In this document: piece by piece, positions 25,753-55,598 of the stretch
Position numbering within the stretch: position 1 is the first letter of the stretch
Layout: each line of letters starts with the position of its first letter
Assembly (NCBI RefSeq): GCF_003014735.1
Contig: NZ_PYAX01000021.1
Coordinates: 1-64,000 of the forward strand
DNA length: 64,000 bases
Direction: 5' to 3'
DNA from: Saccharothrix carnea
GTDB lineage: Bacteria; Actinomycetota; Actinomycetes; Mycobacteriales; Pseudonocardiaceae
The notes under the pieces: model-generated
Database searches by the model: none
Seen by the model: the letters and a program-made list of their open reading frames with translations, nothing else
Told to the model about the DNA's origin: nothing
Program-made: the position numbers and the translations under genes

Positions 25753-28068
25753 TTGGACGGAATAAAGAATAGGCAGGCCGACATAGGACCCGAACTGCGT
25801 CGGAGACGTGCCGCCGCAGGGCTGTCGCTGCAGCAGTTGGCGGACCGATGCCACTACAGCCCTGGGCACATCAGCAACGTCGAGCACGGGACCAAGCCTG
25901 CGAGCGAGGACTTCCTCCGCGCCTGTGACCAGGCACTCGACACTGGCGGCGCCCTGATGGCACTGCTGTCCGCGCGAGGCGACCGCGCCAAATCACGCAC
26001 ATGGAGCAATCCCTCGCAGTTGCCTCCGGTGCCACGACTGGTGGGCCGTTCCGCACTCGTCGACGAACTCGACGGAACACTCGACGCGGTGACGAGCACC
26101 CGATCGTCGGGCATCATCGCACTGGATGGGGCAGCGGGCAGCGGTAAAACCACACTTGCTGTCACATGGAGCTACCGGATACGTCAAAAGTTCCCCGATG
26201 GAGTGTTGTTTTACGATCTCCGCGGCTACTCAGCGAATTCTGCCCCAGCAGAGCCGACCGAAGTGCTGGAGACCTTTTTGCTCGACCTCGGGGTGCCGCC
26301 GGCAGACATCCCGCCGACCGCCCACCGCCGAGCCACCCTCCTGCGCACGAAGCTCGATCGGATGCGCGCCTTGCTGCTCCTGGACAACGCATCCGACGCA
26401 CAGCAGGTACGCCCTCTGCTTCCAGGAGGGTCAGGCTGCCTGGTGATCATCACGAGCCGTCGACGACTGTCCAGCCTGGCAGTCCGGGAGGGTGCCCGAT
26501 GCGTCACGGTTCCCTCGTTCACCTCCGACGAAGCAGTGACCCTGTTGCGCGAAGCGATCGGCACCGAGCGGGTGAACAGCGAGCCGACCGCCGCGCACGA
26601 GATAGCCCGCTTGTGCGCGCACTTGCCGTTGGCGGTCAGGGTGGCCGCGGAGCGGATCAGCGCCCACCCGCACGTGACGTTGGACGAGCTGGCGAGGGAG
26701 CTGTCTGCGATCGACAAGCGGTTGGATGTCCTCTCGCAGGAGGACGAAGCGGTGCGCGCGGTGTTCTCCTGGTCCTACCGCGCCCTGGGCGACGATGCGG
26801 CCGGGCTGTTCCGCCTGCTCGGCCTGCACCCCGGTGACCGGTTCGGCTCCGACATCGCTGCGGCGTTGTGCGGCATCGAGTCCCGCAGTGCGATGCCGCT
26901 GCTCAGGCAACTGTCGGCCGTGCGGCTGGTTGACGAAGTCGGTCAAGACCGCTTTCGTCAGCACGACCTGCTCAAGGCGTACAGCGTCGAATTGGTCCGC
27001 ACCGAAGAATCCGAGGATCAACGCACCGCGGCCGTGGCCAGGCTCGTCGACTGGTATCTGCACACCGCTTATAGGGCCAACCACGCCCTGGCCCCGCAAC
27101 GGCGCGATCCCGAGCTGGACCCTCCTGCCGACGGGGTGCCGTCGTCACCGGCCGGCTTCACCTATGAGCAGGCGCTCATGTGGTGTGAAGCGGAGCTTCC
27201 GAACCTCGTCGCGACCACCCGATTGGCACATCACAGCGGCCTGCATAAGCAGGCGTGGCAGCTACCGGTCGGGCTTTGGAACTACCTGTTCCTACGTAAG
27301 CCGTGGACGGCCTGGATCACCTCCCACACCATCGCCTTGGCCGCCGTAGAGGCCAGCGGAGACGTTTTTGGTCGGGCATGGGTGCTCAACAACCTCGCTC
27401 ACGCCCACCGCGAGCGTCAGGAATACGACCTGGCCAATCGCGAACTGGCAGAGGCGTTGACCCTACGTCGCCAGATCGGGGACGAGACGGGGCAGGCGTG
27501 GACACTGACCGGCAGCGGCTACCTGGCCGCCGAACTGGGCAGGCGGGACAAGGCGGTGAAGCTGTTCAGCGAGGCGGTGGAGTTGTTCCGCGGCGTCGGC
27601 GATCGTCACGGTGAAGCCATCGCATCGGCCAGCCTCGGTGAGGCGATGCGACGTTCCGGCCGCGACGCGGAAGCCTTGCACCACCTGAGCAGAGCTCTGG
27701 AGATCATGCGTAGCACCGCCGATCGCTACGGCGAAGGCTTCACCCTGACCAAGCTCGGCACCACACTGCACGACCTCGGGCGTTACCAGGAAGCCCTCAG
27801 CCAGTTCGACCTCGCGCTGAAGACTCGTCGACAAGTCGGTGACCGGTGGGGCGAGGCCGAGACGTTGGTCAGCCATGGCCACACCCTGAATGCTCTCGGC
27901 GACCGGCAAGAAGCGCAGGTCTCATGGCGCAAGGCGCTCGCCATCCTCGACGAACTCGACGACCCGCGCGCGAACGAGGTCCGGAATTACCTCCATGACA
28001 TGCCTGCGCCTCGCAGTCATGAACCCGACGGCCCGGCGGTGTCCACCGGGTCGTCCGACCAGGTGTAG
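25753..28068 (+). CDS. XRE-NB-ARC-TPR regulator
   Basis: 771 aa, TTG start at 25753 (AAGGGGAG ~12 bases upstream). Domains in order: HTH_31/XRE-type DNA binding (~12-66, LSLQQLADRCHYSPGHISNV), NB-ARC ATPase with P-loop DGAAGSGKTT (125-134) and Walker B ALLLLDNASD, winged-helix region with the QHDLLKAYSVELVR signature, then TPRs (~520-755, GDRWGEAETLVSHGHTLNAL). This is an AfsR/STAND-type regulator without the BTAD domain. It is divergent from the Tad operon (207-bp gap), so it probably controls that operon. The last 52 bp overlap the convergent LOG-family gene. Confidence 0.85.
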   Translation: MDGIKNRQADIGPELRRRRAAAGLSLQQLADRCHYSPGHISNVEHGTKPASEDFLRACDQALDTGGALMALLSARGDRAKSRTWSNPSQLPPVPRLVGRSALVDELDGTLDAVTSTRSSGIIALDGAAGSGKTTLAVTWSYRIRQKFPDGVLFYDLRGYSANSAPAEPTEVLETFLLDLGVPPADIPPTAHRRATLLRTKLDRMRALLLLDNASDAQQVRPLLPGGSGCLVIITSRRRLSSLAVREGARCVTVPSFTSDEAVTLLREAIGTERVNSEPTAAHEIARLCAHLPLAVRVAAERISAHPHVTLDELARELSAIDKRLDVLSQEDEAVRAVFSWSYRALGDDAAGLFRLLGLHPGDRFGSDIAAALCGIESRSAMPLLRQLSAVRLVDEVGQDRFRQHDLLKAYSVELVRTEESEDQRTAAVARLVDWYLHTAYRANHALAPQRRDPELDPPADGVPSSPAGFTYEQALMWCEAELPNLVATTRLAHHSGLHKQAWQLPVGLWNYLFLRKPWTAWITSHTIALAAVEASGDVFGRAWVLNNLAHAHRERQEYDLANRELAEALTLRRQIGDETGQAWTLTGSGYLAAELGRRDKAVKLFSEAVELFRGVGDRHGEAIASASLGEAMRRSGRDAEALHHLSRALEIMRSTADRYGEGFTLTKLGTTLHDLGRYQEALSQFDLALKTRRQVGDRWGEAETLVSHGHTLNALGDRQEAQVSWRKALAILDELDDPRANEVRNYLHDMPAPRSHEPDGPAVSTGSSDQV

Positions 28069-38627: not shown

Positions 38628-41600
38628 CTACTCCACACTCCAGTCCACGAAGCCGAGCGTCTTCAGGTTCTCCTTGAGCGCCGTCACCTGGTCCGGCGTG
38701 AGTTTGTCGAGCCCGACACTCTCGATGTCGACGGTGATGCTGATCTGCACGTCGTTCGCAGCAAACAACGGCGTGATGATCTCGTCGCTGATCAAGCTTA
38801 TGTCGCGGACTGGACGGGACGGATCGAGCGCTTTGGTGGCATGGAACTTCGTCGCCTTGATCGGGCGCGTCGACGATGAGCCCGGCGTGACGACCTGGGT
38901 GCCGGGCTTGCCCGGTGTCTGGACGGCCGGCCCTGCGGAGCCAGCCGGGGAGGTTGTGGCCGGGCCTGTCTTTGCCTGCGCTGCCGCGAGCTCGTCGGCA
39001 ATCTGCTTCTGCGCGACGGCTGGATCGACGATGAGCCCCGACGTGCTCACTGCGGGCGGTGGCTCCGTGATGGTCAGGCCGCGGTAGCGGCCGTCTTCGA
39101 CCCCGTCGGCGTAGGCAAAGCCGTCCTGCTCCAGGAGGAGCACGTCGGTCATCCGCTTGACTGCCGTGTGGATGACGCCGTGATCACGCACCCGTGGCAT
39201 GAAGAGGTACTGGGTGAAGTAGCCGCAGAGGGTACTCACCTGGACGTGCGGCTGCTCGTCCCAAAGCTTCAGCTTGTCGATCTGCTGGCGCAGGAGCGAC
39301 GCTGCGTAAGACTTGAGAACGAACTCGGTCGTTTCGGCCTTCTTGGTGACGCGCTCCGCGAGCGTGCCGTTGCCATTCATGATGATCGTCTCCAGCTCAA
39401 CCGCGGCAGAGCCGGCTTCCTGGTATGGAACAATGATCCACTTATAGGTCTGGCGGATCGTGTCGGAGACTGCCCTCGTCGCCTGGGAGAGACGGCCCTC
39501 GACGACGGTGATGTTGTGCTGGTCGAGGTTCAGCTCGCGGACCCGCTGCTTCACCGACTGCCACGCCATCATGCGACGCAACACCGAGTCGAGCGTGTCG
39601 ACCCGGTCGATGTCAGCGGCGAGAAAAACGAGCGCGTTCTTGTGAATGCGCGGCTGACCGCCACGGCGTGCAAGAAACTCCTGTGCGGCGTCGGCGGCCG
39701 TGGACTTTGCTTTCTTCGAGTGACACCGGTCGAGGCCGAAGATGACGAGCGCAGCGGTCGGCTCGTCCTCCACGTCGGCCGTGCCGCTGGGAACCCTGTG
39801 CACCCTGGCGAAGATGCCTCGGTCATTCTCCTCCCGCAGGATGCGGGTGAGCTCGGCATGAACCTCGGTAACGTCATAACCGTCTGCGATCTCCTGGACT
39901 AACCGGGAGACGGTCTGCTGGAGCGAGAGCCAGTAGCGGTCCTGATCGCGGTTCATGTACTTGCCGCGGTCGGCGAGCTGCCGGAGTGCGTCGGTGACGT
40001 GCGCAGGGTTGTCCGTCGGATACGTCGCCCCGAGGACCACGCGCTTTTGCTCGATGCCGCCGATCGCGGTGCTGCCACCCGTGCGGGCGTTCTTGCTCAC
40101 GCTCGGGGCGGTGCCCAGGAACACGACCCGGGCGACGCGCTTGCCGGCCATCGACTTCCCCAGGAGCGGGATGTCGGTATCGATGCTGTGCGCGGTCGAG
40201 CCGGAACCGGCGATATCGGCGTCGACGATGGGCTTCCACGGGTCGTCGAGGTGGCTGGTGATCTCCTCAAAGACCTTTGTGTCGTCCAGCGGGATGCTCG
40301 CGGGCATGATCAGGGCAGATTGGTCGCCGCGCACCCACAGAGCGTGGACAACGGTCGCCATGAGTCGTAGGACGCCTCGGGTACGCTGGAACCGTTCCAG
40401 CGTCGACCAGTCCTGGTAGAGCCGGTTGAACAACTCCGGGTGGATCGGGTAGGCGGCGCGCATCACATAACGGTATTGCGGCTGCTGAACCTCGCTCGGG
40501 ACCGCGTTCGCGTGCCGGCGGTAGTGGTCCTCGAACTTCGCTACGACCAAATCGCGGGCGTGGCTGCCCTCGTTGGCCAGCGGCTTGAAGAGCCGCCGGC
40601 GGACGATCTCGTAGGACTCCTCCACCGTCGCGGGCTGCCACGGCGTCTCGACGCGATGGATGACCGACCGCAGGCTCCGCAGGGCTTCCAATCCAGGGGT
40701 CCCACCGATCTCGTGCGCGTTGTCGACGATGCCGTCGCCCATGTCGCGTACCGAGTCCGACGCTGGCAGGGACACGACTAGCAGCGCGTTGTCGACCGCC
40801 TTGACAGCCTCCGTCAGCGACTGGGCGAAGGTCTGGTGCGCGTCGAAGGTCCCCCCAGCGTAGGGCTTCTCCGTGCCATGCGAATAGAGCTGCCTCACGT
40901 AGGCGACCCACTCATCGACGAGCACGACACACGGCGAGTAGGCCGCGAGCAGCGCGGCGAGCTCCGTGGTCGGCGGCGGGACTCCGTTGTCGTCGTACCG
41001 CGCGACGCGGGCGTAGCCCTCCTTGCCGCCGAGTTGCCAGGCCAACTCGCCCCACATCGTGCTGACGAAGGTGCCGTCCAACTTCTCAGTGCCGAGCACG
41101 GAAAGGTCATTGCCGACGATCACCGCCCGGTGGACACGGCCAGGGACGTCGGCCACGCCTACTTCGTCACAGATCTCGCGTACGCCGAGCAGGGAATCGG
41201 CCGAGGTACCTCCGGCGAGGTGGTAGACGGCGATCTCCGAGTGGGTCTTGCCGCCGCCGAACGTCGTCATCAGGTCGATCACCGGCTCGCCACCCGCGCC
41301 GTTGAGACGCTGCAGCGTCTGCGCCAGCAAGTACCTAAGACCGCGCGTGATGTAGGTCCGCTCGAAGAACTGCACCGGGTCGCCATACTCCGGGCGCGCG
41401 ACCCCAAGTGCGACCTGGCGGAGGTCGGCGGCGAACTGCGCGAGCTGAAACGTCCCCTTCATGACATCGTCGTGCGGCTCGGCGACATCGCGCCACGCAG
41501 GTAGACCGCCCGTGTCCAGCCGAACCGTGAGCTGTCGCTCCGCTGTGGCCTGATACTGCTTCTGGTCCTTCTCGAAACGGAGCCGGCGCAGTTCCCGTCG

Positions 41601-41999
41601 CAGTTCGTCGACCTCGTCTGCTGGATTCACAGCGCCGATCTGCCGCAGCATGTGCTCACCATCGGACAGCACTCGCTCCGCCTGCTCGTCACTGAACTTG
41701 CCGCCGTGGGCCCATTGCTTCCGCGCGTCCCAGAGCGCCGACACGCAGCGCTTCGCCTCGTACGACACATGTTGGCAGAAGAGCGACTGCCACTGCTTGT
41801 CGAACACCCAGAACAGGTATGACGGATCATCGGTCTGATCGGCGAACTCCCGAGGTCCGGTTCCCGCAACCGCGCGGATCTGCGCCTGCCAAGTCTCACC
41901 GTACTTTCGCATCAAGAGGTCGGTCATCCACGGTCCGAGCCCCGCTGAGACAAGGTCAAGGACCCTTCCCACGCGCTCCTTGTTCGACAATGCAGCCAC
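38628..41999 (-). CDS. DUF499-family ATPase with N-terminal HEPN (Swt1-like) domain
   Basis: 1123 aa, GTG start overlapping the methylase stop by one base. Residues ~1-125 resemble the Swt1-type HEPN domain: VGRVLDLVSAGLGPWMTDLL, then DARKQWAHGGKF, in which RKQWAH (Arg93-His98) is an intact RX4H ribonuclease motif. The large ATPase part has P-loop TTFGGGKTHSE (246-255) and Walker B CVVLVDEWVAYVR, as in DUF499/COG1483 proteins. It is the third gene of a helicase-methylase-ATPase operon. The HEPN motif suggests an RNA-cleaving arm controlled by the ATPase. The C-terminal ~60 residues form a small extra domain. Confidence 0.8.
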   Translation of the reverse strand: MAALSNKERVGRVLDLVSAGLGPWMTDLLMRKYGETWQAQIRAVAGTGPREFADQTDDPSYLFWVFDKQWQSLFCQHVSYEAKRCVSALWDARKQWAHGGKFSDEQAERVLSDGEHMLRQIGAVNPADEVDELRRELRRLRFEKDQKQYQATAERQLTVRLDTGGLPAWRDVAEPHDDVMKGTFQLAQFAADLRQVALGVARPEYGDPVQFFERTYITRGLRYLLAQTLQRLNGAGGEPVIDLMTTFGGGKTHSEIAVYHLAGGTSADSLLGVREICDEVGVADVPGRVHRAVIVGNDLSVLGTEKLDGTFVSTMWGELAWQLGGKEGYARVARYDDNGVPPPTTELAALLAAYSPCVVLVDEWVAYVRQLYSHGTEKPYAGGTFDAHQTFAQSLTEAVKAVDNALLVVSLPASDSVRDMGDGIVDNAHEIGGTPGLEALRSLRSVIHRVETPWQPATVEESYEIVRRRLFKPLANEGSHARDLVVAKFEDHYRRHANAVPSEVQQPQYRYVMRAAYPIHPELFNRLYQDWSTLERFQRTRGVLRLMATVVHALWVRGDQSALIMPASIPLDDTKVFEEITSHLDDPWKPIVDADIAGSGSTAHSIDTDIPLLGKSMAGKRVARVVFLGTAPSVSKNARTGGSTAIGGIEQKRVVLGATYPTDNPAHVTDALRQLADRGKYMNRDQDRYWLSLQQTVSRLVQEIADGYDVTEVHAELTRILREENDRGIFARVHRVPSGTADVEDEPTAALVIFGLDRCHSKKAKSTAADAAQEFLARRGGQPRIHKNALVFLAADIDRVDTLDSVLRRMMAWQSVKQRVRELNLDQHNITVVEGRLSQATRAVSDTIRQTYKWIIVPYQEAGSAAVELETIIMNGNGTLAERVTKKAETTEFVLKSYAASLLRQQIDKLKLWDEQPHVQVSTLCGYFTQYLFMPRVRDHGVIHTAVKRMTDVLLLEQDGFAYADGVEDGRYRGLTITEPPPAVSTSGLIVDPAVAQKQIADELAAAQAKTGPATTSPAGSAGPAVQTPGKPGTQVVTPGSSSTRPIKATKFHATKALDPSRPVRDISLISDEIITPLFAANDVQISITVDIESVGLDKLTPDQVTALKENLKTLGFVDWSVE

Positions 42000-44737
42000 T
42001 AGAACAATCCGTCCTTCTCTGTCGCTGAGATTGCGAGTAGGTCTGACCAGCTGCCGATAAGCGCGTTGTAGCGTTCTTGGTCCCTGGTCCAGCCCTTCCG
42101 CGCGGCGATCGCGTGCAGCCGGTACACAAGCGATTGGGCGGAGTCTCGGAACGTACCCAACTCGCCCATCAGCCGTCCGGCGTCCCGTGTACCGCCACCG
42201 TCGATCAGGCGATCCGCAAGGTGGTGCACCGCCTCCCAGGCGGTAGGCCGGGTATCCTCATTGGGTGTCCAGGTGCGGTCCATCGGCTCAGCGCCCAGTA
42301 CCGCTACGAATCCCGGCTTCGGGTAACCAACCACTCCCGCACGCTTCAACTCATCGACGGAGATTCCCTGCGGCCGTGCCAAGTGGTCGGCTTCACCGAA
42401 GGCGGCAGCCGTCCAGCCGTGGCGCTCCCACCATGAAACGGCAAACCGGGAGTAGGGATCCAGTTCACCTTCCTGCTCATCTAGGACCTCCCCCAACGCA
42501 GCGCTGATAAGCCGTAGCGCCTGCTCGACGGGCACTGCCTTGCCTGCCTGGTCTAGGACCTGGCGATAACGGGAGTACACCTGCATTCCTGGACCCATTG
42601 CGGCTTGCGCTAGATCAACTGGGAGGATGCCCGCCGCTTGAAAGTCTTGAACTGCTGGCTTGAGTTCACGCCGAAGGGATCGGTTGAACTCGCCCAGCGA
42701 ACACGAGCCAGCGGTGAGCGGACGTGGGCGGCAGACCATGACTACGTACGTCGCTACTGCGTTCGTACCTTGTCCAATCATGCGTGTGCTGCCTGTGCCG
42801 TGAATGGGCCATGTGCCGGTAACCTCCAAGTCTGCCTGCACCATCGCCGTGAGAATCGACGACCAGCGCGTCTCTTCTTCTCGGCCCCCCTTCTGTTCTT
42901 TGCTGGCGTAAACGACGAGCATCGGAAGATCCGGAGCCATCGATCGCTGAAGGTTCCTGAAAGTCTCGGTGAACCCTTCGATGAAGTAAGTACGAGCTGC
43001 AGCGGGGTTGTTCGAGTGATGCGCGGCCACTGCAGTCAGTTCGCCATGACGGGGAGCTGCAATCGTTTGATAAAGATCGGGATGGACATCGCGTAGTGCG
43101 AGGCGGTGCCAGATATAGAAGTAGTCCGATAGGTCCGCGTAGCCGATGGCATCGAAGTAGGGCGGGTCTGTCGCGACTAGGGCCGGCTCAGGTGGACTGC
43201 TGGAACGAGCGTCTGCCCGCCGTACTTGCCCATTCCCACTAGGCGCGTAAACAAGAGAATCAAGAACTGTCGGAAGTGAGCTCGCCCAGGTGCCTCCCTC
43301 GCCAACTGCGTCCAACTCGGGAAAGTCCCATGTCATCGGGACGTCGTTTCGACCAAAGGCAGCATTAAATCGCGTTGTTGTGCCATCGCTCTTGACTGTC
43401 ACACGAGCTTGGGTGGAGTTACTCATCGCCAGTCGCCCAAGAGCCAGACCCAGCAGGGTTGCCACTGCGTCCGCCCAGTCGCGACTGCCGCCGTCCTTCA
43501 TTACTCGCTCATGTACTTGCGCGACGAGTTCGGCAAATGTGGTCAGTGTCAGAAGTTGACGACGTGTGTACAGGTCCGCCTGATGCTTCAGCCCGAAGCG
43601 GGGTCCGGAGAACCAGCGCGGGATATTGGGGAGCGGAATATTCGGGAAGTCTTCTATGGCCGGAACGCTCGCGGCCGCGTCGATCTCGTCCTGTGACGGA
43701 GCGCGGTGGTGCCGTCGACCCTCCTTCTCCACAATGACCGCCGTCATCCGAAGGCCCATGCGGCCAGCGGAACCCTCGGCAGCGACGTACGCCTCATCGA
43801 GCACGCCTGGGCAGGCGACGCATACGAAGGCAGCCCCTCTGCCGACCTTCGGCGGTTCGGGAGCCTCGCCCGCCCTTTGTCCGCTTATCACTCTCAATAC
43901 GAGCTGGCCGTCCTGGACTGAGGGCTCGATCCAGGCGCGCTCCCCAGCCTTCTTCGACAGCCACCAAGACGTAGTCAACACCGTCTCGATACCGCAGGTC
44001 GGATTCGGGCACTTGATTGTGCGAGCCCAGAGCCAAGCGATAGGCTTCTCATCAGAATGGAGCGGATAGTAGACTTGAAGCTTCTCCCACGCCTGGGCGC
44101 GGATCAAGGCGGCATAGAAGGAGACATCCGCCTTGATCCCCTCGTACTCGGGGTAAATATGCTTACCGGAGGAGGCGTCGAATAGGCTGTTTTCCCTCGC
44201 GGAGGAGACGCCTCTAGGACGCTTGCGGCCCGGTCGAGGAGCATCCCGTGCGTGCAGCGGCTGCATGCCGTGGACCCTGGGCAGAAGTTCCGTCAGCGTG
44301 CGGGTGATCAGCGCAGGAACCGGATTGAGGTCAGTGCCGTAGGTCGGCAACCCGAGCCTCTGCCCTTCTACAAGAGTCGATCCGCCGCCACAAAAGGGAT
44401 CGAATACCGTTGGGAGACCATTCGGGAACTGCGACAGCAGGATACGCTGTGCCTCGGACATGGAGTCGGCGTCAGGCAGATCCGCCATATTCGCCACGAG
44501 CCGCTTGATGAGGTCCAGCAGGTATGCACGCTTCTCTTCATCACCAGGGTCATCCACAAGAGCAGCAAAGAGAAGCGCGCGCCAAGCCGGTAGGGGCGCA
44601 GGCGCGAACCACTTGTGCAAATTCCGAATTGTGCCGCTCTTGCGCTCCTTATCAGCCTTGCACGCGGCGTTGATCTCGGCGAGCGGCATGGCGACCTCGA
44701 TGAGCTTCTTCTTCCTCGGCGACTGAGCGGTGCTCAC
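41999..44737 (-). CDS. DUF1156-family N6-adenine DNA methyltransferase
   Basis: 912 aa from GTG 44737, in GTGA overlap with the helicase stop; a frame extension to 44800 exists. DUF1156 region: MPLAEINAACKADKERKSGT and NLHKWFAPAPLPAWRALLFA. SAM motif I is DPFCGGGST (113-121); catalytic DPPY at 524-527 (VATDPPYFDAIGYADLSDYF). Cys pairs CPNPTC (~243) and CVAC (~306) form a zinc ribbon, as in COG1743. The enzyme should mark host DNA for the nuclease-helicase partner. The composition has lower GC than flanking genes, suggesting transfer. Confidence 0.88.
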   Translation of the reverse strand: MSTAQSPRKKKLIEVAMPLAEINAACKADKERKSGTIRNLHKWFAPAPLPAWRALLFAALVDDPGDEEKRAYLLDLIKRLVANMADLPDADSMSEAQRILLSQFPNGLPTVFDPFCGGGSTLVEGQRLGLPTYGTDLNPVPALITRTLTELLPRVHGMQPLHARDAPRPGRKRPRGVSSARENSLFDASSGKHIYPEYEGIKADVSFYAALIRAQAWEKLQVYYPLHSDEKPIAWLWARTIKCPNPTCGIETVLTTSWWLSKKAGERAWIEPSVQDGQLVLRVISGQRAGEAPEPPKVGRGAAFVCVACPGVLDEAYVAAEGSAGRMGLRMTAVIVEKEGRRHHRAPSQDEIDAAASVPAIEDFPNIPLPNIPRWFSGPRFGLKHQADLYTRRQLLTLTTFAELVAQVHERVMKDGGSRDWADAVATLLGLALGRLAMSNSTQARVTVKSDGTTTRFNAAFGRNDVPMTWDFPELDAVGEGGTWASSLPTVLDSLVYAPSGNGQVRRADARSSSPPEPALVATDPPYFDAIGYADLSDYFYIWHRLALRDVHPDLYQTIAAPRHGELTAVAAHHSNNPAAARTYFIEGFTETFRNLQRSMAPDLPMLVVYASKEQKGGREEETRWSSILTAMVQADLEVTGTWPIHGTGSTRMIGQGTNAVATYVVMVCRPRPLTAGSCSLGEFNRSLRRELKPAVQDFQAAGILPVDLAQAAMGPGMQVYSRYRQVLDQAGKAVPVEQALRLISAALGEVLDEQEGELDPYSRFAVSWWERHGWTAAAFGEADHLARPQGISVDELKRAGVVGYPKPGFVAVLGAEPMDRTWTPNEDTRPTAWEAVHHLADRLIDGGGTRDAGRLMGELGTFRDSAQSLVYRLHAIAARKGWTRDQERYNALIGSWSDLLAISATEKDGLF

Positions 44738-47700
44738 GGGGCCATCTCCGTTCCTTGGTTCCAGAAGTGGTTCCAGTCGGCGTCCACGGCTGTCTGCCAT
44801 GGCTGTATCGGCTCGTCGAGCGGCTGACGAATGTACCGGACAGTCGTGCTCTCGTCGTGGTGAACGCGGACGAGCGCGAGGACGCTGCGCTGCCCCTTGT
44901 TGAGGGCGGTGACGGCTTCCTGTCTGGTAAGTACGAAGGTATTGCCGCCTTCGACTCGGCCCTTCACCTCGATGAAGTCGAGGCCATCCGAGGTCTGCGA
45001 CTCGATGTCGTAGCCTGGGTTATTGTGCGGCATCTCCGTCCAGCGGTGGCCAAGGGACGTCTCGATGGCAATAACGGCATCCACAGCGATCCGCTCGACT
45101 CGGGCCGTCTCCTTCGCGTGAGCGGCGGCACCCTCAGGGTCGGTGAGGCTTTCGAGCCAGCCCTGCGGGATGACCAGGCATGCCCCGGTGATCTGGGGCG
45201 GACTCGCAGCGACAGCGCGTTCAAGATCGAGTTCGCGCGTCCGGCGGTCGAGGCGGCGGGCTAGCTCCTCGGCGCGAGCCTGCGCCTTGTCGGCCGGGAG
45301 CCGGCTGGACTTGCCTGCGCGTTCGTTCTCCCGGATCTCAGACGCGCGCCGGTCCCAGAAGTTGATCTCATGGGTGAGCCGCTCGCGGACGAGGCGCTTC
45401 GTGCGGTCGACGCGTTCGTGGGTGCGGGCAATCATCTCTTCAACGTGCTTCCGGGCCACGGTGGCGGAGGCGTACTCGACTATAGTCCTGTCAAGGTCGG
45501 CGGCTTGGGCCCAGGGTTGCTTGAGGACGCCCTCGGCGGCCTGGAGTTCGGCGCCGGTCGGCGGTTCGAGGTTGGGAATAGGCGTGGTGGCGATAGGCGC
45601 GATGGTGCCGTCGGGATCGGTGCGGACGTACTGGACGCGACGACTGACAACTTGCGCCTTGCCAGTAGCGTCGGTCCGGCCATCCGTGACGTCATGCTCC
45701 AGTAGGCAAACGACGTAGGGTTCGATGGACGGGTCGTGCCGGTCGATGAGAATGGCCCCGCGACGGAGGGCCTCACCGTGCCGGTCCCCGACGAGGGAAA
45801 GCATCGCGGCCATGAGAGGGTGAGCAGGGTGCATGAGTGTGGCGTCGGCCGCGTGACCCTCGACACGGATATTCGATCGATTGAAAGTGATGCGGGAGTA
45901 CGTGTTCACGACTGGCGCGCCGCGGCCTATGATCCGATCCTGGTCTTTGATGGCGGCGGGGACGGACCGGATCTCGTAACGGTGCTGTTCGCGTTGACGT
46001 AGGTGGCCGCCGAGGTCGGCGAATGCCGAAGCGAAGAACGCTTCCACATGGTGAGGTTGAAGCCGGACGGCCTCAGCTCGGTCCATCTCCTGTCGGACCC
46101 GTTCGATGTCACTGGTGCTCATAGTCGTTGGAACGAGCTGCTCCGCGGCGAGGATCTCATGCAGGCCGTCGCCGACGTTGGCGTCGACCACCTCGAACAG
46201 GTGCGCGCGACTCTCGTCACTGTCACCGTATCGGATCGCGTCAATCATTAGGTCGCGGAGGCTATTGCCGTCGAAGACCTGACCGAGAACGTCGTAGACG
46301 CGGCCGCCTAGCGCAGCGCGCTGGTGCTCCAATTTCTCCAACAGCCGGGCATAAACGTCGCCCTCGCGAGTGTCCCGAGCGACCAACGACCACATATGAC
46401 AGACCTCGTGTTGGCCGATCCTGTGAACGCGCCCGAACCGCTGCTCGATCCGGTTAGGGTTCCACGGCAAGTCGTAGTTCATGAGCAGGTGGGCATTTTG
46501 GAGGTTCACGCCTTCACCTGCGGCGTCGGTCGCGACAAGGAAGACGCAGTTGCTGTCATTGCGGAACGTCTCCTGGGCCTTCTTACGGTCCTCACGCCTA
46601 GTGCTGCCGCTGATAGTGACAACGGCGTCATCTCGCCCCAGGTGGTTGCGGAGCCGGACCGCGAGATCGTCCAGAGTGTCCTTATGCTCGGTAAAGATGA
46701 TCACCTTGCGGCGGACACCGGAGGCGTCGCGAGTCTCGGCGTCGTCGTCCAGCGTCTCCCGGAGACGGTCCCACTTCGAATACGACGGGGAATCCCTGAT
46801 TGCCTTAGCCTGCCGCTCCAGCAGCGCCAGAATTTTGATCTCCGTCTCGAGCTCGGGGATCGACGCAGCGGTGGTCGCTGCGGACACTGCTTTATCTTCG
46901 AGCTCTCGCCTCTCTTCATCGGTCAACTCGTCGAGGTCGTTCAGGTCAACATTGCCGAAGTGGGCGGAGCGGGGAGCAGTGCTGTTTAGTCTGGCTTCTC
47001 GAAGCTCGCCATTGAGCCGGGACATCCGGCGCTCTAGCGACCGATGAATCGCGGCAGGGCTCGATGCCAGGCGGCGCTGAAGTGTGGTAAGCGCGAACCC
47101 AACAGCTATCCGCTTGCGATTATCTTTGTCCTTGAGCCTGTCAGCCATGTTCATCTGGTCGCGGACATAATCCGTTACCGCGAGGTAAAGAGCCTTCTCA
47201 GCATCCGAGAGCGGGTACTGGACAGTATAGGCCCGACGTTCGGGAAATAGCCGGGTGCCGTCGAAACGGAGCAGTTCCTCTTTGACAAGCCGGCGCATCA
47301 GATCTGATACATCGACGCGACGAGTGCCTTCACGGACGGCTCCTTCAAACCGGTCTGAGTCCAGCAGCGCGAGGAACAGCTGGAATTGCTCCTCTTTACC
47401 GGTATGCGGCGTCGCTGTCATCAACAGCATGTTACGAGCCGTACCGAGGCGCTCACCCATCTGGTAGCGCCTAGTCTTCTTCACCTCGGAGCCGAAGACC
47501 GACGCGCTCATCTTGTGCGCCTCGTCGATGATAACCAGGTCCCAGTCGGTCTCGCACGCCTTGTCCAGAATCGACTCGTTATTACGAGCGAGGACGTCGA
47601 GGCGAGCCAGCCATAGCCCACCCCTGACGAACGGATTCCCACCTTGGTCGATCAGGTCCTTCGTAAGAAGCTGGAACGTCAGGCCGAACTTGTCCCGCAT

Positions 47701-48240
47701 CTCGTCAGCCCACTGGTCCACTAGGGCGCCGGGAGCAACGACGAGGATGTTTTGCGCGGCCCCACGCATCAGGAGCTCCTTGACGAGCAGCCCTGCCATG
47801 ATCGTCTTGCCTGCTCCGGGATCGTCCGCGAGGACGTACCGCAGCGGGTGGCGCGGCAGCATCTCCTCGTATACCGCGCGAAGCTGGTGCGGCAGCGGGT
47901 CGACGTCTGAGGTCCCGAGCGCGGCCTGCGGATCGAACAGGTGCGCCAGTCGCATCCGTCGAGCCTCCGCTGCGAGCTTGAACGACGCGGGGTCGCCACC
48001 GAAGGAGAAGGCCGCACCCGCTTCAACCGGGGACAACCCAGGCAAGTCGGCGCCGAACACCATCCGCTCACCCAGTCCCCCGGCCTCCGTTCGGTAGACG
48101 ACATTGGCCGAGTCATCGGTCAGACGCGTAACAGCGACGATCTTCACGGGCTCGGGGCCAGCCAGGCCGCGCAGCAACGCGCCCTCGCGCACGACGCTCA
48201 GCAGCGGCGCGTTCTCGTCCTCAATGGGCGTATTCGACAC
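44734..48240 (-). CDS. SNF2/DEAD-type helicase with C-terminal DUF3883 nuclease-like domain
   Basis: 1168 aa, ATG start, first gene of the operon. Walker A LADDPGAGKTIMAG (137-150), DEAH box LVIIDEAHKMSAS, motif III TATPHTGKEEQF, then the second RecA domain (VFLVATDAAGEGVNLQNAH, motif VI RIEQRFGRVHRIGQ). A coiled region (~980-1040) leads to a DUF3883 domain: GYDIES (Asp1078) and DFIEVKG (Glu1091, Lys1093) form the D...ExK arrangement of PD-(D/E)XK nucleases. It probably translocates on unmodified DNA and may cleave it. Its relatives occur in DISARM class 1 and helicase-methylase-ATPase (Hma-type) loci. Confidence 0.85.
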   Translation of the reverse strand: MSNTPIEDENAPLLSVVREGALLRGLAGPEPVKIVAVTRLTDDSANVVYRTEAGGLGERMVFGADLPGLSPVEAGAAFSFGGDPASFKLAAEARRMRLAHLFDPQAALGTSDVDPLPHQLRAVYEEMLPRHPLRYVLADDPGAGKTIMAGLLVKELLMRGAAQNILVVAPGALVDQWADEMRDKFGLTFQLLTKDLIDQGGNPFVRGGLWLARLDVLARNNESILDKACETDWDLVIIDEAHKMSASVFGSEVKKTRRYQMGERLGTARNMLLMTATPHTGKEEQFQLFLALLDSDRFEGAVREGTRRVDVSDLMRRLVKEELLRFDGTRLFPERRAYTVQYPLSDAEKALYLAVTDYVRDQMNMADRLKDKDNRKRIAVGFALTTLQRRLASSPAAIHRSLERRMSRLNGELREARLNSTAPRSAHFGNVDLNDLDELTDEERRELEDKAVSAATTAASIPELETEIKILALLERQAKAIRDSPSYSKWDRLRETLDDDAETRDASGVRRKVIIFTEHKDTLDDLAVRLRNHLGRDDAVVTISGSTRREDRKKAQETFRNDSNCVFLVATDAAGEGVNLQNAHLLMNYDLPWNPNRIEQRFGRVHRIGQHEVCHMWSLVARDTREGDVYARLLEKLEHQRAALGGRVYDVLGQVFDGNSLRDLMIDAIRYGDSDESRAHLFEVVDANVGDGLHEILAAEQLVPTTMSTSDIERVRQEMDRAEAVRLQPHHVEAFFASAFADLGGHLRQREQHRYEIRSVPAAIKDQDRIIGRGAPVVNTYSRITFNRSNIRVEGHAADATLMHPAHPLMAAMLSLVGDRHGEALRRGAILIDRHDPSIEPYVVCLLEHDVTDGRTDATGKAQVVSRRVQYVRTDPDGTIAPIATTPIPNLEPPTGAELQAAEGVLKQPWAQAADLDRTIVEYASATVARKHVEEMIARTHERVDRTKRLVRERLTHEINFWDRRASEIRENERAGKSSRLPADKAQARAEELARRLDRRTRELDLERAVAASPPQITGACLVIPQGWLESLTDPEGAAAHAKETARVERIAVDAVIAIETSLGHRWTEMPHNNPGYDIESQTSDGLDFIEVKGRVEGGNTFVLTRQEAVTALNKGQRSVLALVRVHHDESTTVRYIRQPLDEPIQPWQTAVDADWNHFWNQGTEMAP

Positions 48241-49259
48241 GCCTAAGAACGTAGTCGAACGGGCGACAGCACGGAGGGGACTTCACCAGTCCCTGGACCG
48301 CAGCGTACACAACGGAGCTCGACTGGCTTCCTCAAGATCCTTCCAACTGAGGTCTTCCGCAGCGCGTGTACTTCTCGATTGTCTGAACCGTCCCAAGGGA
48401 TCATCTGCTTGGGCCTGGGATGCCACTGCTGAGGCGGAACCGCGCGATCCCACCTCAGGCGAGCATTACTCACACGTAGACAGCCCGAAGGATGACTCAA
48501 TCACCAGCCTGCCGGCACAAGACCCCTGATCAGCACAGGTTTCATCCTTTGGTAATCCCGCGGGGGTTCGAACCTGCGCAGCTACCGCCGAGTCCTTCGC
48601 ATCCACCGGCCGACACGACGACGACCTCGGACCGCTACGCCTCCCTACAGCTCACCAGCGGGGCCTGCCCGCTCAATCCACACAATCCGATCCCCCTGAC
48701 TGGACATGCTCCCGGAACGCCTCCCGCAGACAACCGGTGCGCGAGACCGCCTGCGTCACCACCAGCACAGCCCACCAGGCGCCAACGTGCACGATCCGTG
48801 AGATCACCAGCTAGGACCGCCTGGGTAACACCGCTGCACTCGCCACGGCCAGGAAGAACACCCGAACGGGGGACATGATTAGCTTTAGCTAACGCGACCC
48901 CATTCGCCCCACCCAACCCGATCCTCCCGAACATCGGGTTACCGGTCAGCACAGACCACTGTGGACAGTCGCTTCAAGATCGAAAATGATGCACGCAAAG
49001 CCCGCCGAACTGCGCTTTCATCTAGACGAGCGGGATTCTTCAGACCGTCGGGACGATAGAATTTGAACCCGCGATCCCTCGCCCGCCAGTTATGGGCGCA
49101 GAACCACGTTGACAAGAGGCTCGTACCTGCCCAGGCAGCCTTCCTGTGTCACCCGTCCGGACGAACCCGTGAAGGACCTCAGGCGGCACGTGTCCCCTGG
49201 CGACCCCTATTTCGGAGTTCTGGAGTGTCCACCGCACTCGTCCGCCTCCGGAGGGCTCC
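48241..49259. other. 1-kb gap with decayed tRNA-like pieces
   Basis: No gene supported. It must hold the promoter of the leftward defence operon and the start of the excisionase gene. Two T-loop-like fragments are seen, near 48568 (GGGGGTTCGAACCTGCGC) and at 49056-49080, plus a short palindrome TTAGCTTTAGCTAA at 48879-48892. It probably contains the scar of earlier integrations. Confidence 0.45.
49040..49110 (-). other. tRNA-like remnant (possible attachment site)
   Basis: On the - strand this reads a CAT-containing loop (GCCCATAACTGGC), a short variable part and a T-arm-like GCGGGTTCAAAT. The anticodon and T stems are imperfect, so it is not a functional tRNA. Similar sequence belongs to tRNA-Met 3' halves, common targets of tyrosine integrases such as the one encoded next to it. 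Confidence 0.25.
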
Positions 49260-49502
49260 GTGTCCCGTCCAGGTCCCGACACCTCCCGCTTGCTGCACAC
49301 TCCCGCTGAAGCGGCGGCCCTGCTGGCCGTCCGCGAGTCGTGGCTTCGCCGCAAAGCCGGACGCCGGGAGATCCCGTGCACCTTCATCGGCAAGCACCTG
49401 CGCTTCTCCCCCGACGACCTGACCTCGATCGCCCACGCCGGTGCCCGCCCGGCACGCTCCACACGACCGCCAGTCAGGCGCAGCAAGTCCTTTCGAGACT
49501 GA
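49260..49502 (+). CDS. Excisionase / HTH_17 DNA-binding protein
   Basis: 80 aa, GTG 49260 with GGAGGG 5 bases upstream. LLHTPAEAAALLAVRESWLR and PCTFIGKHLRFSPDDL give the MerR-like HTH_17 fold of excisionases; the tail is basic. It is 105 bp upstream of the integrase on the same strand, the usual xis-int order. Confidence 0.85.
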   Translation: MSRPGPDTSRLLHTPAEAAALLAVRESWLRRKAGRREIPCTFIGKHLRFSPDDLTSIAHAGARPARSTRPPVRRSKSFRD

Positions 49503-49607
49503 CGAAAGTTCTTGTGTCGCAATGCTTGCATTGCTCGGCCTACTGGAGCGTTCATCCTCCTGTCACGCCGTGACCATCACACCGCCGCCAGCGAAGGAGC
49601 AGCACAC

Positions 49608-50792
49608 ATGGCCTGGGTGGAGCAGTCGGGAAACAACCACTGGCGCGTCCGGTTTCGCCGCGACGACGGCACCATCGGCTCCATTCCCGGTTTCAGGAGC
49701 GAGAAAGCCGCCCAGGACCACGCCAACGACCTCGAATCCGACCAACGCCGCGGCACCTGGCTCGACCCCACCGGCGGACGCACGACCCTGGAGGAGTGGC
49801 TCACCGACTGGTGGGACGCCCTCGACGTCGATACCCGCACCGAGGACAACTACCGCAGCATTGTGCGCAACCACATCGTGCCCCGCTGGGGCGACACCGC
49901 CCTGGCCGACATCACCAACCTCAAGGTTCAGGCATGGGCCAAGCAGCTGCGCGCCGGACGTCTGTCACCGGTGACCGTCGCCGGGTTCGTCAAGCTGCTC
50001 TCCCAGATCCTCACCGACGCCGCCGAGGACAAGCTCATCGTCGCCAACCCCATCCGGCCCCGACGACGCGGACGGCGCAACCACGCCGCCCGTATCCCCG
50101 AGAAGGTCTGGGCCGAGCCCACCGAGGTGCTGCGCATCGCCGACCAAGTCGCCGCCTTCTACGGACCCGTCGGAGCCGTGCTCATTATCACCGCAGGCTG
50201 GACCGGCGCACGCTGGGGCGAGCTGACCGGCCTGCAACGCCACAACCTGCACCTCTTCGACGACGACACCGGCTTCCTCGTCATCGACCCCCAGAACGGT
50301 GCCCTGCACGAATCCGCCGGCGGCAAGCTCTGGCTCGGCCCACCCAAGACCGACGCCTCCACCCGCACCATCACCCTCAACCCCTCACTCGTCCGACTCC
50401 TGCGGGCGCACCTCGACCACCACGTCCACCCACACGTCTTCACCACCCCGGAAGGCGCACTCCAGCGCCGCAGCAACTTCAGCAAACGCGCCCTGCGCCC
50501 CGCCGCCGACGGCAACCTCAACCAGCCCCGCGCCGTCCTCCGCCTCCAGCCGGTCAAGCCCGGCCTGACCTTCCACGGACTGCGCCACAGCCATAAAACC
50601 TGGATGATCGCCGACACCATCCCCGAGATAGCCCAGTCACTCCGACTCGGCCACATCCTCAAAGACCCCGTCCAGCGGACCTACTCCCACGTCGCCCCCG
50701 AAGTCACCAGCCGCCTGCTCCAGTGCCTGCAGGACCGCTGGGACAAGGCCGTCGTCGACGTCGGCGACAGCTCCTGGCGCAGAATGGCGTAG
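49608..50792 (+). CDS. Tyrosine recombinase/integrase
   Basis: 394 aa from ATG 49608 (AAGGAG 8 bases upstream). N-terminal arm-binding region, core-binding domain (~55-150) and catalytic domain with Arg202 (GWTGARWGELTGL), His323/Arg326 (FHGLRHSHKTW) and Tyr359 (RTYSHVAPEV). All residues of the catalytic set are present, so it should be active. It inserts elements at tRNA-type sites in actinomycetes. No replication or transfer genes lie beside it, so it may be a leftover of an element or a mobiliser of the neighbouring defence operon. Confidence 0.92.
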   Translation: MAWVEQSGNNHWRVRFRRDDGTIGSIPGFRSEKAAQDHANDLESDQRRGTWLDPTGGRTTLEEWLTDWWDALDVDTRTEDNYRSIVRNHIVPRWGDTALADITNLKVQAWAKQLRAGRLSPVTVAGFVKLLSQILTDAAEDKLIVANPIRPRRRGRRNHAARIPEKVWAEPTEVLRIADQVAAFYGPVGAVLIITAGWTGARWGELTGLQRHNLHLFDDDTGFLVIDPQNGALHESAGGKLWLGPPKTDASTRTITLNPSLVRLLRAHLDHHVHPHVFTTPEGALQRRSNFSKRALRPAADGNLNQPRAVLRLQPVKPGLTFHGLRHSHKTWMIADTIPEIAQSLRLGHILKDPVQRTYSHVAPEVTSRLLQCLQDRWDKAVVDVGDSSWRRMA

Positions 50793-50795
50793 CCC

Positions 50796-51284
50796 ATGCA
50801 CGGTCTTCTCATCTACTACTTCAGCGGCGACAACCGCGCCGACGAGCCGATCACCGTCGACTCCGAAGCCGCCCTCGACGACGTCCTGTTCGACATCCTG
50901 GCCAATTCGCAGCCGCACCCGACCGTGGTGTACGTCCAGAATCGGCCAACGGTCGACCCGACCGAGTTACCCGACCACCAACTCAAATTCGACCTCGACA
51001 TCCAGCACGACGTCGCCGCCGTGCACCTTTTCGGGCCGACAGGCTTCCTGCCGGACGAGGCGACGAGTGACGCGGAAGACACCGCGGCATGGATCGCTCT
51101 GCCTCGGCAGACCGACACCCGGGTTTCTAGCGGCGTGACACTCTACATCGACAGGGACACGCGCACCGCGTTCCCCGAAGAAGCCACTCTGCCGCTGAAC
51201 CTGCTCCGCGAACTCCTACACGAATTCATGCGGACCGGCAAACGCCCCACATGCGTCGACTGGCAGCAGACCGACATCTTCTAG
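50796..51284 (+). CDS. Imm1-family immunity protein
   Basis: 162 aa, start 3 bp after the integrase stop. LLIYYFSGDNRADEPITVDS, with LDDVLFDIL and the C-terminal LRELLHEFMRTGKRPTCVDW (EF..TG.RP..v.Wq), is the Imm1 pattern. Imm1 proteins neutralise nuclease or deaminase tips of polymorphic toxins. No toxin gene is visible nearby, so this is an orphan immunity gene, perhaps protecting against foreign toxins. Confidence 0.75.
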   Translation: MHGLLIYYFSGDNRADEPITVDSEAALDDVLFDILANSQPHPTVVYVQNRPTVDPTELPDHQLKFDLDIQHDVAAVHLFGPTGFLPDEATSDAEDTAAWIALPRQTDTRVSSGVTLYIDRDTRTAFPEEATLPLNLLRELLHEFMRTGKRPTCVDWQQTDIF

Positions 51285-51484: not shown

Positions 51485-51826
51485 TCAGAGCGCTCCGGCT
51501 TTGGACGTTCGGCTCCCCATCCAGGTGGCGGGGGCGGAGGTGAACCGGACGTCGGTGCCCTCCCCGGTCACCGTGACCGTGACCCGCTCCCCCACCGGTA
51601 CCTGCTCCACCCTGGTGGGCAGCTGGTAGCTCCAGCCGCGCACCTCCACGTCGTCGACCGCGGCAAACCTGAGGTGGAACCGGATCCAGTCGTGCTCGGG
51701 CGGCGCCTCCCACGTCCGACGGGCGGCTTCGTCCAGCGGTCCTTCGAAGGACGCGGTGATCGCCTGGTCGCGCTCGTCCCAGTGCAGGGCGTAGAGCTCG
51801 AACGCCGACAGGTCAGATGTGCTCAT
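51485..51826 (-). CDS. Small Imm50-like beta-rich protein
   Basis: 113 aa, ATG 51826, overlapping the end of the next gene by 14 bp. AFELYALHWDERDQAITASF, HLRFAAVDDVEVRGWSY and a final TVTVTGEGTDVRFTSA show alternating beta strands. It is a diverged relative of its neighbour (both carry SDLSA.EL and a F.AVDDV.. strand). An Imm50-type immunity role is tentative. The 200-bp gap 51285-51484 holds nothing I can name. Confidence 0.5.
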   Translation of the reverse strand: MSTSDLSAFELYALHWDERDQAITASFEGPLDEAARRTWEAPPEHDWIRFHLRFAAVDDVEVRGWSYQLPTRVEQVPVGERVTVTVTGEGTDVRFTSAPATWMGSRTSKAGAL

Positions 51827-54410: not shown

Positions 54411-55160
54411 TCACTGTTCGGTGACGTACCGCAGGTAGGCGGCCGGGTTGTTCATGTACCGGCGCCAGTGGTCGACCAGTGCGAGGTCTTCCCACTTCGT
54501 CCGCCGGAACCCGTGGTCGCCCACTTCGATGATGTCGGCGCCCGGCGTGGCGGCCAGGACCGGCGAGTGCGTCGCGCAGATCACCTGCGCCCCCGATTCA
54601 CCGAGGTCGTACAGGAGGTTGACCAGCCGCAGGCAGGACGTGAACGACAGCGCCGCCTCGGGCTCGTCCATGAGGTAGAAGCCGGGTTCACGGAACATGT
54701 TCGCCAGCACGGTGAGGAAGCCCTCGCCGTGGCTCATCTCGCTGGTGTCCTCCTCCCAGTAGCCGCGCATCCCGCTGATGGCTTCCATGAACCCGAACGC
54801 CGTCTCGGCCCGCAGGAAGTACCCCCGGCGCTTGGTCCGCGGCCCGCTCTTCTGCCGGGCGCCCGCGGCCGTGGTCTCCCAGCGGAGCAGGTCACCCAGC
54901 ACCGTTTTCGGCCGGTCGTTGACGTACTTGCGACCCGCTCGCCCGCCGCGCGCGTCCAGTCCCCACGCCTCGGCGAACGCCTCGACCAGGGTCGACTTCC
55001 CCGAACCGTTCTCCCCGACCAGGAAGGTGATCGGCCGCTCGAAGAGCATGCCTTCCTCGGCCATCTGCGCCACGCACGGCACGGTGAGCGGCCACGGTCG
55101 TGAATCCGGAAGACCGGAGGGCAGTAGGTCGTCGGGGATGTACGCGCGGCGGGCAAGCAT
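54411..55160 (-). CDS. AAA family ATPase (ABC-like, RecF/OLD-type head)
   Basis: 249 aa from ATG 55160. Walker A ITFLVGENGSGKSTLVEAFA, ABC-like signature region EMSHGEGFLTVLANMF, Walker B FYLMDEPEAALS and H-loop VICATHSPVLAATPGADI. This is a compact ABC-type ATPase as found in AAA/TOPRIM and toxin-linked systems. It is 13 bp after a Cys-rich peptide gene and directly followed by the helical small gene, so it sits in a three-gene set. Confidence 0.85.
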   Translation of the reverse strand: MLARRAYIPDDLLPSGLPDSRPWPLTVPCVAQMAEEGMLFERPITFLVGENGSGKSTLVEAFAEAWGLDARGGRAGRKYVNDRPKTVLGDLLRWETTAAGARQKSGPRTKRRGYFLRAETAFGFMEAISGMRGYWEEDTSEMSHGEGFLTVLANMFREPGFYLMDEPEAALSFTSCLRLVNLLYDLGESGAQVICATHSPVLAATPGADIIEVGDHGFRRTKWEDLALVDHWRRYMNNPAAYLRYVTEQ

Positions 55161-55173
55161 GGGCTGTCCTTGA

Positions 55174-55450
55174 TCAGTACTCGGTCGGGACGCATGCCCC
55201 CTTGGGCGTGCAGTTGCCCGCAGGGTTGCACGCCGGGCCACAACTCGGCCCCGCACTGCGGGTTGCACATGTTCGGCACACACGGCGACACCGGTCGTTG
55301 CACGAACCGCTCGGCCAACGCCGCGCCCGTTGACGGCCGTTCGGGACCATCGCAGGGTCGGTACACCGGAGCCGGGCATCGGCTGCCGCTACGGCCGTCG
55401 AAAAGTCGCTGGGCAGAACCACCCGGTCGGGTCACCAAGACCTGGAGCAC
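55174..55450 (-). pseudogene. Cys-rich peptide gene with single-base frameshift
   Basis: Two frames each hold part of a Cys-rich peptide: RPVSPCVPNMCNPQCG upstream and CGPACNPAGNCTPKGACVPT to the stop at 55174. Removing one base from the C-run at 55249-55252 joins them into CNPQCGPSCGPACNPAGNC, with regular CxPxxC spacing. The 5' end is uncertain (GTG 55450 or 55435); no ribosome site is seen. The stop is 13 bp before the AAA ATPase start. It could encode a secreted Cys-rich toxin-like or structural peptide. Confidence 0.45.
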
Positions 55451-55578: not shown

Positions 55579-55598
55579 TCTCATACGATATTCGATTG

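Follow-up and report, generated by a model that had tools for sequence, protein, structure and literature searches.

Helicase-methylase-ATPase (Hma) systems, three-gene operons found in 26 phyla, were introduced in PMC8565338 (2021). The Type-1 DUF499-centred BREX-Related (BR) systems of PMC12839542 (2026) combine a DUF499 ATPase carrying an N-terminal HEPN domain, a DUF1156 N6-methyltransferase and an SNF2 helicase with a C-terminal PD-(D/E)XK nuclease, and a restriction-modification (R-M) class typified by Ava_2192 (PMC3710099, 2013) joins an active Swt1-like HEPN to a DUF499 AAA+ ATPase in one protein, encoded in an operon with an SNF2-DUF3883 helicase. Here we analyzed a 64,000-nucleotide stretch of the Saccharothrix carnea genome (contig NZ_PYAX01000021.1, positions 1 to 64,000; hereafter the window), in which hmaA, hmaB and hmaC form three complete minus-strand open reading frames (ORFs) at 38628-48240; the genome measures 8.9 Mb. 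The locus is confirmed as a well-formed three-gene Hma anti-phage system whose ATPase carries a domain predicted to cut RNA, and is mostly a new copy of an already described system, otherwise ordinary.

The described systems also come with proposals of how they work. In the parts of PMC12839542 concerned with Type-1 BR/Hma, N6 self-marking, a BrxC-like scanning complex and degradation of foreign DNA by the helicase-nuclease have been proposed, with the HmaA nuclease as primary effector (citing experimental antiphage work) and the HEPN RNase as a last-resort suicide effector. Similarly, the relevant section of PMC3710099, which names no system, gave the ATPase a McrB-like looping role and the HEPN domain a PrrC-like release, the latter being held inactive by the R-M subunits and released upon their neutralization. 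An earlier note, made from the sequence alone, had considered the combination of DNA restriction with RNA-based shutdown uncharacterized; given these passages of PMC3710099 and PMC12839542, this can hold for experiments only, and a limited full-text literature search, with bioRxiv outside it, found no experimental test of Hma HEPN activity.

The hmaABC locus compared with described systems

The HmaA, HmaB and HmaC models were the top PADLOC matches of the respective proteins (Table 1), whereas matches of the hmaABC products to the NCBIfam models DrmD, DUF499_antiphage and DUF1156_antiphage were all far below the cut-offs. Chance origin is excluded because of the E-values and the ~40% identity across contigs titled as many different phyla. 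The earlier note's restriction-like, Hma-type operon, assigned to defense by its models, stands, and the mere resemblance to Hma of which it spoke gives way to best matches with all three models. The profile search that it proposed, for HEPN_Swt1, DUF499, DUF1156 and DUF3883, matched all four (DUF3883 as NOV_C); in the main text of PMC8565338, which shares the operon structure, HEPN, DUF499, DUF1156 and DUF3883 are mentioned zero times. Like the present locus, the Type-1 BR systems have no extra core gene, and the relevant parts of PMC12839542 revealed no substantial difference. The description of that type also includes a helical DUF1156 N-terminus and a target-recognition insert following core strand 2 in the methyltransferase, an RRM fold at the C-terminus of the ATPase and a TUDOR domain at the N-terminus of the helicase.

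The overlaps noticed earlier at the gene junctions are present, but one size had to be corrected: hmaA and hmaB would overlap by 67 nt from the listed ATG of hmaB and by 4 nt (GTGA) from a downstream GTG, while hmaB and hmaC overlap by 1 nt (TAGTG). The GTG is preceded by a good ribosome-binding-site-like sequence, AGGAACGGAG, and the conserved part of HmaB starts near residue 31, directly after it. The GTG is therefore the likely start, and the longer overlap was rejected on the ribosome-binding-site-like sequence and the 4-nt overlap. The overlapping same-strand junctions, together with the gene order kept elsewhere, suggest a single operon.

Table 1. Positions in the window of hmaABC, its domains and motifs, and features of the putative integration context
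Feature	Position	Strand	Remarks
hmaC	38628..41999	-	PADLOC HmaC 905.1 bits, residues 166-1118 of 1123
HmaC Walker A GGGKT	41244-41258	-	
HEPN_Swt1 domain of HmaC, residues 12-122	41634..41966	-	PF18731 72.1 bits, full length, cut-off 27.5
RX4H motif RKQWAH (R93-H98)	41706..41723	-	
hmaB	41999..44737	-	PADLOC HmaB 667.5 bits; likely GTG start 44737, listed ATG 44800
HmaB DPPY, residues 545-548	43157..43168	-	Numbered from ATG 44800
hmaA	44734..48240	-	PADLOC HmaA 1392.7 bits, best stretch residues 17-1157 of 1168
NOV_C/DUF3883 domain, HmaA C-terminus, residues 1048-1136	44833..45099	-	NOV_C 53.3 bits
HmaA DEAH motif	47515-47526	-	SNF2/SF2 helicase
HmaA GAGKT motif	47803-47817	-	SNF2/SF2 helicase
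Degenerate tRNA-Pro 3'-end fragment, 27 bases	49047..49073	-	Putative attachment-site scar
Excisionase-like ORF, outside system	49260..49502	+	HTH_17 30.8 bits, cut-off 27
Tyrosine-integrase-like gene, outside system	49512..50792	+	Phage_int_SAM_3 above cut-off, Phage_integrase below

HmaA matched Helicase_C, SNF2-rel_dom and NOV_C in Pfam, the last of which we take to be the domain also called DUF3883, and RapA was the best structural match of its model. Within the PD-(D/E)XK-like tail that the earlier note had pointed out, D1078, E1091 and K1093 (E1091-V-K1093) are invariant in 51 of 51 rows, and the C-terminal nuclease is accordingly predicted, from its residues, to be active. The PADLOC HmaA model matches helicases generally (21-genome survey; 14 of 14 controls also positive). 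BrxHI and BrxHII of BREX matched HmaA at 309 and 269 bits; BREX membership was rejected, the best PglZ match in the genome reaching 23.6 bits on another contig, below the 25-bit cut-off. DISARM class 1 has an adenine methylase, and the resemblance to it suggested earlier proved distant and confined to the SNF2 helicase, DrmD scoring 369 bits on HmaA against 1392.7 for the HmaA model; DrmA scored 203 bits, also far below HmaA. None of the 20 flanking ORFs that were scanned, a selection from those in the window, matched a Drm model, in line with the reported absence of drmA, drmB and drmC, and DISARM membership was rejected.

HmaB matched DUF1156 (47.1 bits, residues 37-88) and, below threshold, N6_N4_Mtase; its best PADLOC stretch covers residues 126-926 of 933, and a second stretch also passes. 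The DPPY motif of the methylase, as described in the earlier note, is kept in every one of the 70 rows that cover it (the remaining 18 of 88 are gapped), and an m5C methylase was rejected on this conserved motif. Stretches of low conservation (181-210, 451-480 and 511-540 in 44 rows; 181-240 in 6 close rows) fall between motif I (134-140) and DPPY (545). A sequence search of the PDB gave no match to HmaB or HmaC up to E 0.1.

The HEPN domain of HmaC and its distribution

HmaC combines HEPN_Swt1 with DUF499 (98.8 bits), the ATPase named in the earlier note, and represents a BrxC-like AAA+ ATPase; its AlphaFold2 model (50-row alignment; mean predicted local distance difference test score, pLDDT, 85.4; predicted template modeling score 0.57) matches the BrxC fold. 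HEPN_Swt1 was detected genome-wide at a single place, hmaC. For the earlier note, loss of the HEPN fold in structure prediction would have counted against its reading; the model shows helices across residues 6-155, R93 lying close to the end of helix 80-97 and H98 directly after it. Its pLDDT is 92-96 in residues 11-30 and 61-140 and drops in 41-60 and beyond 140. HmaC thus shows both features of a Swt1-like HEPN, an RX4-6H motif and a (predicted) all-helical fold.

The N-terminal RX4H motif recognized earlier lies inside this domain, and its catalytic pair is strongly constrained. For conservation we used 104 full-type rows, 103 of them with the relevant part, setting aside 9 short-type rows and one truncated row (L013). 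Of these 103 rows, 102 have R93 and all 103 have H98, or 99 and 100 of 100 after removal of three near-copies; the one row without R93 (L022) carries a shifted R-X6-H. Among 11 R-X4-6-H patterns in HmaC, R93-H98 and R170-H176 occur in 102 of 103 rows each, followed by R545-H552 (92 rows), R727-H734 (43) and the remainder (at most 15). R170-H176 was assigned to the DUF499 region, because its H is also present in several HEPN-less proteins. As the catalytic residues of HmaA, HmaB and the HmaC HEPN are all conserved, all three modules, HEPN included, are under selection. At the other end of HmaC, part of PMC12839542 calls the C-terminal RRM hypervariable; if this means the last ~60 residues, it is not so here, where mean conservation over the 103 rows is 0.66 for residues 1061-1123 and 0.37 for the linker 1000-1060.

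The stretch matched by the PADLOC HmaC model begins beyond the HEPN segment, so that the model omits a conserved putative effector domain. We therefore surveyed 396 genomes of the phylum with both this model and PF18731. The HmaC model matched in 38 genomes, and 23 places in 21 genomes, the present one included, exceeded 700 bits. In 22 of these 23, HEPN_Swt1 immediately precedes the match on that contig and strand, in one case (G042:C303) with HEPN and ATPase in different open frames. In the exception (L013, G270:C11), HmaC begins only at residue 199 and other ORFs replace the N-terminus; by eye, the upstream ORFs of L013 resemble MNT nucleotidyltransferase-like, HEPN-like and PIN-like proteins. 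Among the lower-scoring places (132-559 bits, best per genome, leaving out three genomes with a best place below 35 bits and all second places), 0 of 14 had HEPN_Swt1 on the same contig; one genome (G165) has it on another contig, and one place (G309) is an uninformative fragment. A DUF1156 methylase match lay within ~6 kb on the same contig at nine of nine short-type loci looked at. In a tree of 52 ATPase regions (taken from 113 rows, 30 by random draw), a branch (95/87) has all 42 HEPN-bearing rows on the same side, with the caveat that branches are long among HEPN-less rows (two very long) and that L013 is truncated.

Outside these genomes, 140 of 72,556 plasmid records matched HmaC, and of the 40 listed, 30 bear the annotation Swt1 family HEPN domain-containing protein; the HEPN domain is already recognized in public annotation. 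No HmaC relatives were found in 50,697 phage records. Separately, two genomes without an HmaC match (L131 in G038, L136 in G008) contain open frames of 2106 and 2167 aa that include HEPN_Swt1 and are perhaps the giant helicase proteins of PMC3710099.

Relatives, putative integration context and neighboring genes

The fetched relatives are the best 80 of 587 loci, in which HEPN presence is biased, unlike in the 396-genome survey. Among the listed matches the closest, ~60% identical, lie on plasmids of Rhodococcus and Microbacterium that carry the same three genes and, within the best 80, on Microbacterium, Pseudarthrobacter, Nocardioides and Thermocatellispora contigs. In one of the plasmids, NZ_CP064874.1 of Microbacterium paraoxydans (L034:7325-9999), hmaB is annotated as two overlapping ORFs, with hmaA and hmaC full length. 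At least 9.9 kb of upstream sequence was available for 48 of the 80, and 39 of these carry hmaA-hmaB-hmaC on one strand in that order (7 compact, 32 with intergenic distances above 350 nt); 2 show another order, and hmaA was not found in 6 and hmaB in 2 (one lacks both). The window's copy is compact, without embedded genes. Between the genes of these loci and of a few others lie 119 candidate ORFs, of which the 62 scanned gave OLD/AAA ATPase, Schlafen, GmrSD, PIN, NYN, PD-(D/E)XK and HepT families, including matches to the PADLOC models HEC, GajA and PtuA, which overlap one another; HEC stands for the Hma-embedded candidates in part of PMC12111858, and a passage of PMC12255303 mentions Septu inside Hma. 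A search of 24 further genomes of the genus found no hmaABC.

The operon was probably acquired with an integrative element, as integrase- and excisionase-like genes and a tRNA fragment lie nearby (Table 1). The tRNA-Pro fragment matches four other genomic places with 3 mismatches, one inside an intact tRNA-Pro(GGG) gene (L171); the other three (L170, L172 and L173) read as truncated tRNA-Pro 3' ends with similar downstream sequence and, together with the fragment, are probably scars left by repeated integration within one family of elements. Congener G415 matches the window through the integrase to 49089, and G402, with a rearranged piece, to 49184, both having other genes beyond. The fragment lies ~16 bases past the end of the G415 match and is a likely integration scar, and putative attachment site, near one border of the inserted segment. 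In G400 and G407 the match begins only at 50766 and 52288, respectively, and the integrase is therefore not common to all four congeners. At the corresponding integrase-side position G402 carries a GmrSD-type gene with an adjoining CBS-domain ORF (L168:13838-15643); the position may be a defense hotspot.

A tRNA-Ala at 55598 was dropped as attachment site: no piece longer than 17 bases recurs in the window, and the gene is present in all four congeners. No Rfam family besides the tRNA was found at 34000-58000. A second tRNA-3'-end-like stretch (GGTTCGAACCCCCGC...ACCA) at 48550-48577 (-), 0.3 kb upstream of hmaA, has no other genomic copy within 3 mismatches. Other neighbors include an Imm1-family immunity protein directly after the integrase (50796-51284, +), a weak Imm50 match (51485-51826, -), an ORF whose end weakly matches OLD/AriA/mad3-type ATPase models (54411-55379, -; best 65 bits) and an HTH + NB-ARC + TPR protein (25753-28068, +), a STAND-type regulator or defense candidate.

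Proposed working and alternatives

We consider it quite probable that hmaABC is a complete HEPN-bearing Hma (Type-1 DUF499-centred BR) system, probably arrived via an integrative element, in which DNA restriction is layered with a HEPN backup. HmaB would mark a target motif of the host by methylating adenine (or cytosine N4); HmaC would assemble on DNA and read the target and its modification state, and the HmaA translocase-nuclease would cut unmodified invading DNA. If DNA restriction were blocked or overwhelmed, the HEPN RNase would be released in a manner coupled to the ATPase, RNA would be cleaved and the cell would stop. We infer the methylated base, the motif, complex formation, the order of events, and the RNase activity and its trigger.

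Several points weigh against this proposal. For this hmaABC copy it is drawn from genes, domains, residues, linkage and predicted fold, and HmaB may have a target-recognition insert, as the low conservation between motif I and DPPY suggests. The main text of PMC8565338 predicts HmaB to be an m5C methylase, which does not fit DPPY. When the HEPN profile was searched against PDB sequences, 10 matches had an E-value below 1, and the name of none of them points to HEPN; the best (E 0.0067) was to the 57-residue chain dAIT03. The structure-search listings for HmaC, in which residues before 171 are barely covered, contained no HEPN chains. The count in PMC12839542, as part of that paper gives it, is HEPN in 1370 of 2446 Type-1 taxa; because this is far below 22 of 23, the all-or-none pattern may be limited to sequences that resemble the PADLOC HmaC model closely, and the short-type loci may be members of different BR types. 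Finally, instead of killing the cell, the HEPN RNase could have a regulatory role or target phage RNA.

How far the HEPN domain reaches beyond a backup is the main point of divergence. HmaC might sense invading DNA and HEPN cleave RNA directly as the front-line effector, leaving HmaA as translocase or second effector. The domain is near-universal in high-scoring HmaC, with a catalytic pair conserved to about the same degree as the HmaA nuclease, and more frequent loss might be expected of an optional backup; however, PMC12839542 names the HmaA nuclease as primary effector, its taxon count is as given above, and HEPN-less relatives retain ATPase and methylase, which together make this rather unlikely. 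HEPN, near-universal in its own clade, may nevertheless be a main effector. The broader idea, that HEPN is no optional addition but an obligate effector that defines a single monophyletic lineage of Hma, that HEPN-bearing and HEPN-less DUF499-methylase loci are two distinct systems and that Hma is a dual DNA/RNA nuclease with RNA cleavage as a main arm, is tentative and on balance doubtful. Conversely, HEPN might serve dimerization or RNA binding without catalysis, as eukaryotic Swt1 HEPNs have been judged inactive (PMC3710099, in part) and domain-wide conservation is moderate (0.61, against 0.75 for ATPase residues 166-400); yet R93 and H98 are among the domain's most conserved residues and L022 still has its shifted motif, and we regard a purely structural role as quite improbable.

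Two further readings concern the system as a whole. Phage replication might be blocked by BREX-like exclusion without cutting, the nuclease being accessory, in keeping with the BrxC-like ATPase and the BrxHI/BrxHII scores of HmaA; with no PglZ over the cut-off genome-wide and the PD-(D/E)XK-like triad intact throughout, this is unlikely. That the operon is decayed or silent in its host would fit the degenerate neighboring scar and the two promoter-like sites of a sigma-70 consensus scan, both on the strand opposite hmaABC, but the ORFs are full length, all checked catalytic residues are present and such scans are weak evidence in high-GC genomes, making either state highly improbable. The earlier note's interpretation as a whole is thus partly supported, and layered restriction with a HEPN backup is the reading that we prefer. 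Hma is a very widespread and little-tested restriction-like system, for which this compact actinomycete copy would offer a clean test object, both for HEPN catalysis and for the time at which it fires.

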